IMG/VR virus record: IMGVR_UViG_3300046534_000820
Coordinates: 1-42,978 of that record
Direction: 5' to 3' (one strand)
Length of the DNA: 42,978 nucleotides
Source of the DNA: a virus
Notes under the pieces: generated by a model
What the model saw: the letters and a program-made list of their open reading frames with translations, nothing else
Told to the model about the DNA's origin: nothing
Databases searched by the model: none
Shown: piece after piece, positions 27,226 through 31,783 of the stretch
Layout: each line of letters begins with the position of its first letter
Numbering within the stretch: position 1 is the stretch's first letter
Translations under genes and position numbers: made by a program

Positions 27226-28353
27226 TCATTCGATTTTTTCAAAATCATCGACTGATATACTTATCGCTGGCCGCTTGTCTGACTCGGGTACTAATGTGGA
27301 TTTGCCCGCAGGTTTTACAACAAACTTATCCATTAATACCTTCTTACTTTTACCGAGGGCTTTTTCAGCCTGGGTGACTGATAAAACCTTTTTCGGTGCA
27401 AACGCTTTTTCACCCAGTTCTTCAACTAAAAATATTTCGGTTGCGGACTCACTGAACCATTGGCGCGTAGACCTACCCGCGACAAGCTTGTAGCCCTCAA
27501 ACAGCTTACCCTCACGCAAACGTTCAACAACTAGCAGTTCAACGGCATCAAGCCAACTAATGATCAGCTTGCGGTTTTCAATCGCTTGCCTGAGTTGTTT
27601 ATCGCCTAGCGTTTGCAAGGGTTTGATGTCCAGATCTTCAAAATGCGTTAAGATCGTGTCCTCGGTCAACTTTTTAAGCGCCGGGCATGTGGGTTTAGCC
27701 GGGCAAAATTTACATTGTTTTTCACCCGCGACCCGCAAAGCTGATCCGCTGAGCGCTTCCTCGGCTTTTTGACTAGCGTACTCACCGAACTTGTACAGGG
27801 CGTCAGGGGTCGTTACCCACTCATCAATATGATCAAGCCTGGGTTGAACGATGACACACACCACTTTTTCAATATCAAGATAATCATACTCAATCAGCGC
27901 CCCCAGTGCATACAATTGGGCTTGCTCGTTATTTTCTGCAAAAACTTTTAAACCCTTACCGTACTTGAGATCAATAACGTAAAGTGTTCGACCAACCAAA
28001 ACAATAGCGTCGGATGTTCCGAAACCATCAGGTACAAAACTCGAATAATCACACCGTACTTCGTAGAATTGATCACCCCCGAGATTACGCACATAATCAA
28101 CATAAATTTGGATATAATCAGCCATTTCCAGGGTGATTATGTGATCAGGATATTGATCTAGTGCGGTGCTTATGAATCGCGCAGTGGGTCCCATTTTGTC
28201 CCGACTTAACGTTGCGTCGCCGAGTTCGTGGGCAATTGAACCCTCAAGAGCCGCCGCCGATCCTTTGTCGGCGAGGTTTTCGCAAGCCTTAACGCTCCCC
28301 GTACAATTTAACCACCGATGAGCGCCCGAGGGACCTAGTTTGGCATGTGCCAT
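27226..28353 (-). CDS. DUF2800 family Cas4/RecB-like nuclease
   Basis: This 375-residue protein has the DUF2800 signature LGPSGAHRWLNCTGS at the N-terminus. The PD-(D/E)XK core follows as GFGTSDAIVLVGRTLYVIDL then KYGKG (Asp ... D-x-K). A C-terminal cluster QCKFCPAKPTCPAL, together with C17, could ligate an Fe-S cluster as in Cas4/AddB. The family is a standard part of phage replication/recombination modules with DUF2815, VRR-NUC and SNF2 genes. It is probably an exonuclease that processes DNA ends; activity is inferred from the fold. Confidence 0.88.
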   Translation of the reverse strand: MAHAKLGPSGAHRWLNCTGSVKACENLADKGSAAALEGSIAHELGDATLSRDKMGPTARFISTALDQYPDHIITLEMADYIQIYVDYVRNLGGDQFYEVRCDYSSFVPDGFGTSDAIVLVGRTLYVIDLKYGKGLKVFAENNEQAQLYALGALIEYDYLDIEKVVCVIVQPRLDHIDEWVTTPDALYKFGEYASQKAEEALSGSALRVAGEKQCKFCPAKPTCPALKKLTEDTILTHFEDLDIKPLQTLGDKQLRQAIENRKLIISWLDAVELLVVERLREGKLFEGYKLVAGRSTRQWFSESATEIFLVEELGEKAFAPKKVLSVTQAEKALGKSKKVLMDKFVVKPAGKSTLVPESDKRPAISISVDDFEKIE

Positions 28354-28369: not shown

Positions 28370-28873
28370 TTATAAAGCGCGGACTGCGTGTGCAACCTCA
28401 AGATACTTACTTTCATCAAGCGCGGGTAATGTCGCGGCGCCATTGTCTGACAATATGGCCTTGATCTTGCCCTTTAATTGACGATCACGTTCAACCGTTT
28501 TGATAAATAATGACTGTAAATCTTGACGCGTTATCACCTCAACCTCACCGTAAAGATCGTCGTCGTCGTCGTCGTCTTCAACATCAAGATTAACCTCGGT
28601 TACCGTTTTGTTTTTTGTTACATCCTTTACGGCTGGTTTTGCCTTCGCCTTCGACTTCGGCTTAACTTCGGTTTCGGGTTCGGCCTCGGCCTCGGGTTCA
28701 CCCTTAACACCGTCTTTCATATAATCAAAAATAGGGTGCTTTTCCCCCGAACTTTTGCTTTCAATGCCCGCTGGGTTATCAGTAGCGCCCGCATGTGTTG
28801 GTGAAAGTGAATCGATTCGATTGGTTAATAGAATGATCGCTTGTGTCAACGCGTTAATCTTTGTTTCTAACAT
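28370..28873 (-). CDS. Low-complexity charged protein at head of replication operon
   Basis: This 167-residue protein has an N-terminal heptad-like helix (KINALTQAIILLTNRIDSL), a long disordered linker of Glu/Ala/Lys/Pro (EPEAEAEPETEVKPKSKAKA), an all-Asp run encoded by a CGT/GAC trinucleotide repeat (28558-28575) and a compact C-terminal helical domain (EVITRQDLQSLFIKTVERDR to the end). The architecture suggests a scaffold or recruiting factor for the replication proteins that follow. It is the first gene after the divergent promoter pair. The family is not recognised. Confidence 0.65.
   Translation of the reverse strand: MLETKINALTQAIILLTNRIDSLSPTHAGATDNPAGIESKSSGEKHPIFDYMKDGVKGEPEAEAEPETEVKPKSKAKAKPAVKDVTKNKTVTEVNLDVEDDDDDDDLYGEVEVITRQDLQSLFIKTVERDRQLKGKIKAILSDNGAATLPALDESKYLEVAHAVRAL
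28558..28575. repeat. Trinucleotide repeat (CGT)6
   Basis: Six CGT units encode part of the poly-Asp run of the minus-strand gene at 28370-28873. It is one of several short tandem repeats inside coding sequence in this genome. Confidence 0.9.
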
Positions 28874-28901
28874 TTTTATTTACTCTTTTTGTGATTGGGA
28901 T

Positions 28902-28930
28902 TTGCATATTATTAGGATTTAATCTATTAT
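28902..28930 (+). promoter_or_regulatory. Rightward early promoter (TTGCAT-N17-TATTAT)
   Basis: The -35 TTGCAT (28902-28907) and -10 TATTAT (28925-28930), with a 17-bp spacer, drive the Cro-like gene at 28972. It overlaps the leftward promoter almost completely. TTGCATA and TATGCAA (28902-28908 and 28928-28934) form a perfect inverted repeat framing the region, a likely operator. Confidence 0.7.
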
Positions 28931-28934
28931 GCAA
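28906..28934 (-). promoter_or_regulatory. Leftward promoter of the replication operon (TTGCAT-N17-TAATAT)
   Basis: On the minus strand TTGCAT (28934-28929) and TAATAT (28911-28906) are 17 bp apart, aimed at the gene starting at 28873. Its -35 overlaps the rightward -10 and the reverse, so polymerase can occupy only one at a time. Confidence 0.7.
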
Positions 28935-28971
28935 GTTGTTTTTTAACTTTTAATAAAACTAGGTGTTAAAC

Positions 28972-29190
28972 ATGAGCGAATTAAACAAAAGAAATATGGC
29001 CGTATTAATGGCCGACGTTGTTGACCATTTTGGGGGACAATACAAACTGGCGGCGGCGTTAAACGTGTCAAGTGTTGCGGTTAACGCCTGGATGAAGCGT
29101 GAGGCGTTCCCGCCGAAACGCGCAATTGAAATAGAAACATTAACAAATCGTAAATTTAAAGCGATCGACTTAATTGGGGTATCAAAATGA
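28972..29190 (+). CDS. Cro/YdaS-like DNA-binding regulator
   Basis: The ATG at 28972 has AGGTG 6 bases upstream; a GTG at 28963 is in frame but lies within the ribosome site. The 72-residue protein is a single helix-turn-helix: FGGQYKLAAALNVSSVAVNA then W, PPKRAIEIETLTN, the pattern of Cro/YdaS-type regulators (GG-x-x-x-LA-x-x-L-x-VS-x-x-AV-x-x-W). It sits directly downstream of the divergent promoters and probably binds the TTGCATA/TATGCAA dyad to switch between leftward replication genes and rightward genes. No CI partner is found. Confidence 0.8.
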   Translation: MSELNKRNMAVLMADVVDHFGGQYKLAAALNVSSVAVNAWMKREAFPPKRAIEIETLTNRKFKAIDLIGVSK

Positions 29191-29552
29191 AATTTTTCAC
29201 AACCGCAATTTCAGTGTTAACACTCATCCAATGCGTAAATGGTGTTGTAGTCGCTGAAGTATCACCTGATGTTAAGATCTGCGGTCAGATTAGCGACATG
29301 GGTCGAAATGTCATGGCGGCCAGGCAAGACGGTGTGCAAATGCAAGACGTTGTTGAGGCGTTGATTGCAAGCTTTCCCGATAGCGAACGATTAACTGTGG
29401 TACTTGCTGTAGTTAATGCCGCATATATGATCCGCATGTACGACGCACCTGAACATAAAACGATCGTCGTAGATGCATTCGCCGACGGTGTTTACTTGGA
29501 ATGTATTAAATCACATGGGTCAGGGCAATATATAAAAACAAACTTGAAATGA
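29187..29552 (+). CDS. Exported small protein with signal peptide
   Basis: This 121-residue protein overlaps the regulator stop (ATGA). It has a typical signal peptide (MKFFTTAISVLTLIQCVNGV, probable cleavage after VVVA near residue 23). The mature domain is helical with two cysteines (KICGQ and LECIK) that could form a disulphide in the periplasm, plus MAARQDGVQMQDVVEAL. This resembles small periplasmic proteins of bacteria and phages with the A-x-x-RQ-x-G pattern. A role at the envelope, such as superinfection exclusion, is possible but not shown. Confidence 0.65.
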   Translation: MKFFTTAISVLTLIQCVNGVVVAEVSPDVKICGQISDMGRNVMAARQDGVQMQDVVEALIASFPDSERLTVVLAVVNAAYMIRMYDAPEHKTIVVDAFADGVYLECIKSHGSGQYIKTNLK

Positions 29553-29556
29553 TGTA

Positions 29557-29587
29557 TTGACACTATAGCCCATACGCGCTATAGTGT
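29557..29587 (+). promoter_or_regulatory. Promoter/operator unit 1 (TTGACA-N17-TATAGT)
   Basis: TTGACA (29557-29562) and TATAGT (29580-29585) are separated by 17 bp. A perfect 10-bp inverted repeat, ACACTATAGC (29560-29569) and GCTATAGTGT (29578-29587), covers the spacer and both boxes, so a bound repressor would block RNA polymerase. A diverged second copy lies at 30114-30145. Confidence 0.8.
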
Positions 29588-29626
29588 TGTTACTGACTAA
29601 GCAGAACTTAGAGAATCAAACAAGAG
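29584..29626 (+). repeat. 43-bp leader repeat, copy 1
   Basis: This sequence is identical to 30141-30183 and 30466-30508. It begins within the promoter -10/transcription start region. It contains a CTAAG/CTTAG hairpin with CAGAA loop (29597-29611) and ends in the AAGAG ribosome site 8 bases before the ATG at 29635. Confidence 0.95.
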
Positions 29627-29634
29627 ATAAGATT

Positions 29635-29811
29635 ATGACTTTTAAAGAAATTGAAATAATGTTAATTAACAGAGTTACCTCTGCGAAATTGTCAGGCGCT
29701 ACATTAACTACCGAAGATGGTAAATTTGAATTAATTTTAGTTGGCGATCATGGTCGATATTCATTTGAATTAAATGGCATTCCGGTTTCACAAATAAAAA
29801 GAGATCTGTAA
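29635..29811 (+). CDS. Small protein of unknown function, 58 residues
   Basis: The ATG at 29635 follows leader repeat 1 at the same distance as in the other copies. The frame is open back to a GTG at 29584 inside the leader, but that region is better explained as untranslated leader. The product is a compact alpha/beta protein (MTFKEIEIMLINRVTSAKLS, then two beta strands GKFELILVGDHGRYSFELNG) with no known motif. The stop overlaps the next start (TAATG). It is the first gene of a strongly promoted, operator-controlled unit. Confidence 0.6.
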   Translation: MTFKEIEIMLINRVTSAKLSGATLTTEDGKFELILVGDHGRYSFELNGIPVSQIKRDL

Positions 29812-30104
29812 TGAACCAAAACGCTAAAAACATGAAAACAATATCAAATGAAAAGTTGTCTAGTTGGATTAAAAAGAAATACAAAGTGTTGATTGAAGAA
29901 GTTAGCCAGGACTCGGAGGTATGGGAGGTGGTTCTTTTACCAAACCTCGAAACGTCCGAGCGCGAAACAATTTGGTGTTTTGGTAAATCAAACTATGAGG
30001 ATGGTCATTACACGCAATCTGAAATAAAATCAGACCTTGATGATTTTCTTGCTAATGTCCGCGGTGTCGAATCAACCCAATGGGATGAGGCGCAAACTAA
30101 TTAA
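29811..30104 (+). CDS. Small protein of unknown function, 97 residues
   Basis: The N-terminus MNQNAKNMKTIS is repeated almost exactly at 30403 (MNQNAKNIKTLS), with 38 bases of near-identical DNA (29811-29848 and 30403-30440). The rest is acidic with aromatic residues (SQDSEVWEVVLLPNLE, ETIWCFGKSN). No domain is recognised. It is translationally coupled to the preceding gene and followed directly by promoter/operator unit 2. Confidence 0.6.
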   Translation: MNQNAKNMKTISNEKLSSWIKKKYKVLIEEVSQDSEVWEVVLLPNLETSERETIWCFGKSNYEDGHYTQSEIKSDLDDFLANVRGVESTQWDEAQTN

Positions 30105-30113
30105 TATGTTGTA

Positions 30114-30145
30114 TTGACACCGTAGCCCAATCAAGCTATGGTGTT
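30114..30145 (+). promoter_or_regulatory. Promoter/operator unit 2 (TTGACA-N17-TATGGT)
   Basis: TTGACA (30114-30119) and TATGGT (30137-30142) lie 17 bp apart. The dyad ACACCGTAGC / GCTATGGTGT has one mismatched pair compared with the perfect dyad of unit 1, so repressor affinity and promoter strength may differ between the two units. Confidence 0.75.
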
Positions 30146-30183
30146 GTTACTGACTAAGCAGAACTTAGAGAATCAAACAAGAG
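30141..30183 (+). repeat. 43-bp leader repeat, copy 2
   Basis: This copy is identical to copies 1 and 3 and includes the CTAAG/CTTAG hairpin. It ends 9 bases before the ATG at 30193. In this copy the leader is not in frame with the gene, which supports its role as untranslated leader. Confidence 0.95.
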
Positions 30184-30192
30184 ATAAAGATT

Positions 30193-30393
30193 ATGAATAC
30201 ATTAAAGTCAGTTGACCAGTTGAGCCAAGGCGATATTTTAGTAAATGTAAATCACGGCTTTGAAATAAAAATAGGCGAGATTGGCAAGAAAAACACTCGC
30301 TATGTTAATTTAGAAACTGGCGAAAAAGTAAAAAGCTCTACTTCTAAATTTAACTTTATGCTTCGCGAAGGTGTTTTTATAAGAAAAGGGTAA
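30193..30393 (+). CDS. Small protein of unknown function, 66 residues
   Basis: The gene is translated from leader copy 2. The product is a small beta-rich protein (SQGDILVNVNHGFEIKIGEI, then NTRYVNLETGEKVKSS), reminiscent of a small SH3-like barrel with Gly-Asp turns. No family is recognised. It sits in the duplicated cassette array, as the counterpart of the 29635 gene, but the two proteins are unrelated, so the leader has been reused with different cargo. Confidence 0.6.
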   Translation: MNTLKSVDQLSQGDILVNVNHGFEIKIGEIGKKNTRYVNLETGEKVKSSTSKFNFMLREGVFIRKG

Positions 30394-30402
30394 GTGATTA
30401 AA

Positions 30403-30516
30403 ATGAACCAAAACGCTAAAAACATTAAAACATTATCAAAAGACACCCAGGCTGAACTGCTAAAGGTGTTGTTACTGACTAAGCAGAACTTAGAGAATCA
30501 AACAAGAGTAAATCAA
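30403..30516 (+). pseudogene. In-frame fragment resembling the start of the 29811 gene
   Basis: This segment repeats the MNQNAKN start of the 29811 gene, continues with KDTQAELLK and runs straight into leader copy 3, which is read here as LLLTKQNLENQTR. The frame stays open into the next gene, so a longer 187-residue product from 30403 is possible. Because leader copies 1 and 2 are untranslated, I read this as a recombination remnant. Confidence 0.4.
30466..30508 (+). repeat. 43-bp leader repeat, copy 3
   Basis: This copy is identical to copies 1 and 2 but lacks the TTGACA promoter half upstream. It ends 8 bases before the ATG at 30517, the same geometry as the other copies. Confidence 0.95.
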
Positions 30517-30963
30517 ATGAGTAAAATAAAATTTTATCAGGTCAGCGACTGCAGTGACGTTTTAGCGAAATGTAACACCCAGGCTGAAGCATACAGATTT
30601 GCCGAAAGACGATCAAAGCAACTGCGCGCCTGTGGCATGAACGGCCTGTCACAATCAATTAAAGTAGAGGTAGTTACAGCGGACAACTATGAAACTCGAT
30701 CGCTCAATACTGAAGATGTCAACATAAAAAATAAAACTAAGGATCAAGATCTGCATATGAACACTAAAATTACAGACCACACCCCCCACAAATCAAGCTG
30801 GATTCAAATTCGATGTAGCCGTGATGAAAAAGCCAATATTGTTCGAACATTAAAAACGGGTGAAAGTTTAAGCGAATTTATGCTTGATGCGGCAAGTGAA
30901 AAAATTACACTCAGAGGCATACGGGACGCCGCCGCAATAGATGAACGCTTGCGCAACATGTAA
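30517..30963 (+). CDS. Two-domain protein with ribbon-helix-helix-like C-terminus
   Basis: This 148-residue protein is started from leader copy 3. The N-terminal ~55 residues (MSKIKFYQVSDCSDVLAKCN ... SIKVEVV) form a small alpha/beta domain. After a polar linker, WIQIRCSRDEKANIVRTLKT then SLSEFMLDAASEK has the strand-helix-helix pattern of Arc/MetJ-type DNA-binding proteins. An internal ATG at 30757 could yield the DNA-binding part alone. It is a candidate repressor for the nearby promoter/operator dyads. An alternative longer form would start at 30403. Confidence 0.55.
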   Translation: MSKIKFYQVSDCSDVLAKCNTQAEAYRFAERRSKQLRACGMNGLSQSIKVEVVTADNYETRSLNTEDVNIKNKTKDQDLHMNTKITDHTPHKSSWIQIRCSRDEKANIVRTLKTGESLSEFMLDAASEKITLRGIRDAAAIDERLRNM

Positions 30964-31048
30964 TTGCGTTACGCTAATTTAAAACACCTTGTAGGGGCCG
31001 TTTGACCCCTGTTAAACGACAACATGAATAATTAGGAAGGACAAACTT

Positions 31049-31783
31049 ATGAAAGTAAAATTAAAATGGGGAACATTGGCACCACTTACAGCGGGAAAGA
31101 TATACGATGTTATTAATGAACTAGCAGAATATTATAAAATCGTGAATGATGATGGAATTTTAAAATCTTACATAAAACATGCGTTTGAAGTAATACCGGA
31201 GGGAAAAACTATGAAGGTGAAATGCACAATAGATAACTTAAGAGGTGTTTCAAAAAACTCGGTTTACGATGTGATTAATGAATTAAAAAACTCTTACCAG
31301 ATTGTAAATGACAAGAGTATGTTAAGCGCGTTTAATAAAGATTGGTTTGAAGTAGTACCCGAGCCAGCAAAAGTTAAAACAATAGCGAGTGTGCATTCTC
31401 ATCCTTGGCTGACACTCGCTAGGACATATGATGTATTATATGAGGATAAAAATTTTTATGGAATTATTGGTGATAATGGGGTGCAAAATAACTATCTTAA
31501 GTTTTGGTTTGAAGTAGTGCAAGAAGCAGAGCCAGCCCCAAGCAAAATACGCACGATAGAATACGCAACAACAACAGATGATAAAATTCATTTGTCACAA
31601 GAAAAGGCTGAAGCTCATCAAAAACAGCTAGATCTTAAAGCAGACCTAAAGGCGTTTAGAGGTCCATTTAAGAACGGTCACGCCAGGGTTAATTTAGCGT
31701 TAATGGTAATTTGGGCTCAAGAACAGCCCGAATCATTTCAATTGCTCGGTCGGCTAGTTAAGGAGCTAAAGGATAATGGATAA
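31049..31783 (+). CDS. Three-repeat protein of unknown function, 244 residues
   Basis: AGGAAGG precedes the ATG. The protein contains three ~53-residue repeats (about 1-54, 55-106, 107-160), each with the pattern Y-D-V-(I/L), then Y-x-I-(V/I)-x-D-(D/K/N) and WFEVV or AFEVI, likely small SH3-like or beta-barrel modules. The second repeat starts with its own Met (31211) preceded by GGAGGG, so a shorter product can be made. The last ~80 residues are helical (DLKADLKAFRGPFKNGHARV). The function is unknown; the repeats suggest protein or nucleic-acid binding. Confidence 0.65.
   Translation: MKVKLKWGTLAPLTAGKIYDVINELAEYYKIVNDDGILKSYIKHAFEVIPEGKTMKVKCTIDNLRGVSKNSVYDVINELKNSYQIVNDKSMLSAFNKDWFEVVPEPAKVKTIASVHSHPWLTLARTYDVLYEDKNFYGIIGDNGVQNNYLKFWFEVVQEAEPAPSKIRTIEYATTTDDKIHLSQEKAEAHQKQLDLKADLKAFRGPFKNGHARVNLALMVIWAQEQPESFQLLGRLVKELKDNG

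Follow-up and report, generated by a model that had tools for sequence, protein, structure and literature searches.

A 20-nt leader core shared by four phages lies at a near-constant distance upstream of unrelated small genes

Three exact copies of a 43-nt leader precede unrelated small genes in a viral genome, and a 20-nt core of this leader (ACTGACTAAGCAGAACTTAG) recurs unchanged in front of other genes in three further phages. Together these make six identical copies of the core in four phages (three in the genome studied here and one each in L106, L110 and L111), all at a similar distance from a start codon. This pattern suggests a small, transferable control element that is shared before unrelated genes, and on balance we think that the repeated piece is a 5′-UTR element anchored to the start codon. 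Judged from their sequences, the leader and the palindromic promoter found upstream of two of its copies are two separable modules.

The DNA analyzed, hereafter the window, is the 42,978-base IMG/VR virus record IMGVR_UViG_3300046534_000820. Its genes include, by family, a Terminase_6 large subunit, a DUF2800 exonuclease, a DUF5906/PriCT-2 primase and a P22-Cro/YdaS-like regulator. The repeats sit in an accessory stretch of about 8 kb that runs from the Cro-like gene (28972) to the primase gene (37242); in L001, the nearest relative of the window (about 70% nucleotide identity), the same interval spans about 1.2 kb and holds none of the repeats. A search of the whole region against phage DNA returned 0 matches, and scanning genomes for a tail-module protein pointed to no host. 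The stretch also encodes a 244-aa protein (31049–31783) with three matches to DUF6501 (PF20111), a small domain repeated internally. In the window the units follow the order P-leader-A-B, P-leader-C-B′, leader-D, and comprise the following features:

29557–29585, + strand: promoter P1, TTGACA-N17-TATAGT (11/12 consensus matches; the best site of the region)
29560–29587, no strand: operator-like dyad 1, ACACTATAGC-N8-GCTATAGTGT (perfect 10-bp arms; equaled by 0/300 shuffles)
29584–29626, + strand: leader copy 1, 43 nt, exact three-copy repeat; 20-nt core at 29592–29611, from the predicted +1 A
29635–29811, + strand: cargo gene A, 58 aa; ORF, no match of note in Pfam, PHROG or PADLOC
29811–30104, + strand: gene B, 97 aa; ORF starting MNQNAKN, a start segment that recurs at 30403
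30114–30142, + strand: promoter P2, TTGACA-N17-TATGGT (10/12 consensus matches)
30117–30144, no strand: operator-like dyad 2, ACACCGTAGC-N8-GCTATGGTGT (9 pairs plus one G-T)
30141–30183, + strand: leader copy 2, exact 43-nt repeat; core at 30149–30168
30193–30393, + strand: cargo gene C, 66 aa; ORF, no family match
30403–30444, + strand: second gene-B start (MNQNAKNIKTLSKD), called B′; 42-nt repeat, 93% identical, parting from B just after TATCAAAAGA
30466–30508, + strand: leader copy 3, exact repeat without a promoter; core at 30474–30493; in frame within ORF 30403–30963
30517–30963, + strand: cargo gene D, 148 aa when started at the leader-spaced ATG (186 aa from 30403); core-to-ATG distance 43 nt

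An earlier note on this DNA, made from the sequence alone, had described an identical leader behind both promoters and a third copy at 30466 that has lost its promoter. All three copies are indeed exact, where shuffles expect 0. The 33 nt upstream of copy 3 resemble P2 no more than do 70 of 1143 window segments (6%); at this background level there is no trace of a decayed promoter. The leader ends 8, 9 and 8 nt ahead of the start codons at 29635, 30193 and 30517, which agrees with the gap of 8–9 bases that the note had given. Likewise borne out were the duplicated MNQNAKN gene start (29811 and 30403) and the unrelatedness of the downstream proteins, as BLASTP and shuffle tests revealed no relationship among A, C and D.

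One point in that description needs correction: leader copy 3 lies in frame inside an open ORF. B′, which looks like a truncated B-like gene, continues into copy 3 with no stop codon between them, so that 30403–30963 forms a single open frame. Gene D more likely starts at 30517, since this ATG matches the other copies both in its distance from the core (43 nt) and in its GAG-N8-ATG spacing. Gene D thus probably begins at 30517, just downstream of copy 3, while the leader of copy 3 may be translated within a longer protein. The filler before this copy (30442–30466) shares 14 nt (ACACCCAGGCTGAA) with gene D (30575–30588) and 13 nt with the exonuclease gene (27364–27376, minus strand). The shared segments encode TQAE in the frames of gene D and the exonuclease, so the filler could reflect either template switching or codon preference.

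Promoter and leader together make up a repeat of 87 nt, in which copies 1 and 2 agree at 89%; mosaic duplication within the window is thereby documented. For the three copies the best reading is duplication plus one deletion/fusion, and nothing indicates transposition. Local duplication of the promoter-leader unit would have produced three leader copies; a deletion/fusion with the second B-like gene start would then have removed the third promoter, and gene D would probably be read through from P2.

We then searched other genomes for the leader, as the earlier note had suggested for related phages. An exact 30-nt leader was absent from viral_contigs, and the shorter 20-nt core was needed: it was exact in three other contigs, namely L109/L106 (LR797314.1, freshwater), L110 and L111, the only ones in viral_contigs besides the window, each time with other cargo. 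No exact copy turned up in 257 Gb of bacterial and archaeal genome sequence (genome_contigs), and copies with four or fewer mismatches were absent from the other loci compared; the rarity of the core is relative to IMG/VR, GTDB representatives, INPHARED and PLSDB. Alignment of the six copies gave 20 consecutive invariant columns, followed by divergence. The independent contexts are few: in its structural and terminal modules L110 is a relative of the window, and L106 and L111, both P2-like phages and distant kin of each other, gave 0 tblastx matches to it. In L106, L110 and L111 the core stands ahead of a different gene each time. The cargo proteins of the four phages show no relationship to one another, and no informative family was found for them in the window, L106, L110 or L111. 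The idea of a shared leader before unrelated cargo therefore extends beyond the window to both related and unrelated phages.

The promoters in front of the core differ. A sigma70-type site, recognized by sequence match only, precedes five of the six copies (all but copy 3), with 12/12 consensus matches in L111, 10/12 plus a TG in L106 and 10/12 in L110, each of them different. The end of the –10 lies 6 nt from the core for P1, P2 and L110, and 21 and 24 nt from it in L106 and L111, respectively. By contrast, the first base of the core is 43, 44 and 43 nt from the ATG in copies 1–3, 41 nt in L106, 43 nt in L110 and 39 nt in L111. Because the core-to-ATG distance is constant at 39–44 nt while the –10-to-core distance ranges from 6 to 24 nt, the element tracks the start codon and not the promoter. 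A spacing tied to the ATG favors a role in the 5′-UTR, whether in translation, mRNA stability or the binding of an RNA-binding factor.

These distances also bear on the idea of a DNA-level element, with the core as a transcription-factor site or an initially transcribed sequence involved in promoter escape, pausing or nut- or put-like antitermination. The core does start exactly at the predicted +1 for P1, P2 and L110, and it contains the short dyad CTAAG-N5-CTTAG. However, it lies 21–24 nt past the –10 in L106 and L111 with the ATG distance still kept, and copy 3 retains core and spacing without any promoter. A lambda-type nut site combines boxA with a boxB that has a GNRA-like pentaloop. The leader has a 5-bp stem and a 5-nt loop (CAGAA), but no boxA-like sequence was seen by eye, and no Rfam family covers the leader. 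We consider this reading unlikely.

A passive remnant, that is, a recombination joint or the hitch-hiker of a recently spread moron conserved by recency, seems to us quite unlikely. In its favor, phage genomes are mosaic, the element is rare, and the window copies, coming from local duplication, may be too recent to reveal constraint. Yet the flanks in L106 and L111 have fully diverged around an unchanged 20-nt core, cargo and promoters differ, and a fixed distance to the start codon would not be expected of a remnant.

A coding origin would make the core an N-terminal coding part (LLLTKQNLE) or a leader peptide, with copies 1 and 2 as displaced coding fragments. Its frame stays open from the core into gene D in copy 3, and likewise into gene A in copy 1; a low-confidence prediction makes the peptide helical. 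The identity across four phages, however, covers nearly seven codons' worth of sequence with 0 synonymous changes, a conservation that peptide coding leaves unexplained. In addition, the frame is discontinuous with the gene in copy 2 and L106 and stops before the ATG in L111, and copies 1, 2 and L110 have no start codon from the predicted +1 to the core. We therefore regard a coding origin as highly improbable.

If the core is instead a 5′-UTR element anchored to the start codon, as we prefer, its invariant sequence (5′-ACUGACUAAGCAGAACUUAG) would lie near the 5′ end of the mRNA, at the predicted +1 itself in copies 1 and 2 and L110. Downstream of it would come an A-rich linker, for the most part unstructured, then a short Shine-Dalgarno sequence and, 39–44 nt from the core's first base, the ATG. 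Such an element would most likely act post-transcriptionally, with a ribosome, RNase or RNA-binding factor recruited or excluded through contact with the core or with a small CUAAG-CAGAA-CUUAG hairpin. It would serve short, moron-like transcription units in which promoter, operator and cargo are interchangeable.

The CTAAG/CTTAG hairpin had been proposed in the earlier note, together with a possible RNA-level control. The stem is present, but its predicted folding energy is weak (–2.9 kcal/mol) and shuffles fold equally well. RNA-level control is supported in part by the constant core-to-ATG distance set against the variable promoter-to-core distance. An RNA hairpin is possible, but no compensatory stem change appeared among the matches listed. 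A stem-relaxed scan gave mostly chance matches, none listed being a convincing compensatory change. A loop-relaxed scan likewise returned mostly chance matches and no loop variant in a leader context except one ambiguous site. At that site (L131:8010–8029, minus strand), ACTGACTAAG-CCTAC-CTTAG stands between a terminator-like run, a promoter-like TATACT and an AGGAG-ATG, and it is a possible loop variant of the leader (loop CCTAC). Another candidate, CCCGG-CAGAA-CCGGG in L185, was rejected as the end of an upstream ORF.

Among cis-regulatory RNA families, RF02980 (freshwater-2) matched L111 end to end with 28.0 bits, below the cut-off of 49.9. The likeness consists of a hairpin, an AGAAC-loop hairpin, AGGAG and AUG, but in L111 the first of these hairpins corresponds to the promoter dyad and would stay outside the transcript. 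No RF02980 match was found in the window, in L110 or at the L106 leader, and we rejected membership, as the only match among the leader copies is sub-threshold. A stronger match near L103, in a T4-like contig (L257:1501–1566, minus strand; 47.3 bits), was set aside, as it overlaps a coding start (MPNKGLWGSIPVDLERQRRK; MPNKGLWGS...); conservation of coding sequence may account for part of the family itself.

The first 12 nt of the core, ACTGACTAAGCA, also occur in E. coli ssrA (NC_000913; L256:387–398), inside the conserved GACUAAGCAUGUAG segment. This identity is real and may be due to chance or mimicry; we treat it as a lead only. Judged by a covariance-model or ARAGORN match, no tmRNA was found in the window. 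A 20-nt near match in ssrA of phage DSS3_MAL1 was rejected as antisense (E ~2). A bolder and rather doubtful proposal is that the core is a transferable, promoter-independent 5′-UTR regulon element before accessory genes of unrelated phages, read by a conserved host factor or RNA that recognizes the 12-nt ACUGACUAAGCA also present in tmRNA. Were this true, accessory genes of different phages would answer to one host-state signal.

The closest analogue that we found is the SAS/ESAS system of Cluster K mycobacteriophages, in which short, highly conserved sequences stand before the start codons of unrelated genes, both within and between phages (PMC3203893). SAS is a 13-bp sequence, GGGATAGGAGCCC, that sits where translation starts and pairs partially with 16S rRNA; it occurs in 11–19 copies per genome in one phage cluster, and a role in translation is suspected (PMC3203893). 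In half of the cases ESAS adds 17-bp imperfect inverted repeats upstream (PMC3203893). The core resembles this system in being repeated before unrelated genes, with three copies in the window and single copies in three other phages. It differs in being an unrelated 20-nt sequence that lies 39–44 nt upstream of the ATG and excludes the Shine-Dalgarno sequence, and in occurring in one to three copies per genome across unrelated lineages. The 17-bp imperfect inverted repeats of ESAS have no counterpart here, where the dyads vary between units and overlap the promoter. Given these differences in sequence, position and distribution, the leader core is of the same kind as SAS/ESAS but not a member.

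Phage morons are accessory genes that often have their own promoter (PMC7067206). The units described here are similar: small genes with a sigma70-type promoter of their own, set in between conserved modules. They lie between a portal/ogr-like gene and an integrase in L106, after structural genes in L110 and after tail genes in L111. A terminator-like site upstream was called in L110 only; one is visible by eye in L106 and L111, and none was found in window positions 28800–31300. We know of no leader shared among morons. If the core is functional, its sequence alone would mark accessory genes across unrelated phages, offer a handle on shared post-transcriptional control of morons and provide a compact 5′-UTR part that works with different promoters and genes. 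A further suggestion is that small phage transcription units exchange their promoter, leader and cargo independently of one another.

P1 and P2 are the two top sigma70-type sites of the region and have a 28-base promoter/dyad block in common. Both carry the same internal dyad, as previously claimed, with 10/10 pairs in P1 and 9 plus a G-T in P2; the two differ by a T-A to C-G double change. The pattern ACACyrTAGC-N8-GCTAyrGTGT, allowing three or fewer mismatches, occurs nowhere else in the window (shuffle expectation 0). The dyads of L106, L110 and L111 are different or not significant. From their sequences, the P1/P2 dyads are probably a layer apart from the leader and would act as an operator for some repressor. 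The single shared repressor that the earlier note had envisaged did not emerge, as none was identified for the dyad. The Cro-like protein (28972) is an unlikely candidate because its own control region carries a different inverted repeat, TTGCATA...TATGCAA, similar in L001. The C-terminus of gene D has sub-threshold, weakly ribbon-helix-helix-like matches to NikA/TacA, which make it a weak candidate for the dyad repressor; an AlphaFold model of protein D, run without an alignment, was unusable (pLDDT 40).

These results weigh on the central claim of the earlier note, a single mobile promoter-operator-leader cassette whose cargo is swapped under one repressor. Within the window, duplication did take promoter and leader together, with different genes behind them, and near-identical dyad promoters occur in other viral contigs, none of them with the leader. 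Outside the window, however, leader and dyad promoter are never together: the leader follows other promoters, and the dyad promoter occurs in T4-like contigs without it. Neither a recombinase nor a target-site duplication nor a cognate repressor came to light. We think it very unlikely that promoter, operator and leader travel as one unit.

The inverted repeat TTGCATA...TATGCAA is conserved upstream of the Cro-like gene, overlapping a promoter, in the window (28901–28935) and in L001 (9510–9475, minus strand), and is likely the Cro operator.

The dyad TTGACACNNTAGC-N8-GCTANNGTGT was found at 28 sites in 25 viral contigs (estimated chance about 1 or fewer). Near matches in Klebsiella Webervirus were rejected, having neither TTGACA nor an intact arm. 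Most of the 28 sites belong to one family in T4-like marine contigs, with AAAAAAGG upstream, TATAA and GAGGGCAA-ATG downstream, and at most three exact copies per locus. A –10 mirrored into the –35 converges on much of the dyad sequence, so the likeness to P1/P2 may have arisen without common ancestry. To our knowledge, this repeated palindromic promoter has not been described. In L081–L105 (for example, L083:9532–10438 and L098:5362–6093) it appears as an early-type promoter, AAAAAAGG-TTGACACTATAGC-N8-GCTATAGTGT-TATAA, in front of different small genes, with a strongly kept palindrome, often with C(TTCG)G at its center, and compensatory changes in both arms. Indeed, ACAC..GTGT becomes ACAG..CTGT and TATAGC..GCTATA becomes TGTAGC..GCTACA; since both arms change together, the symmetry itself is kept.
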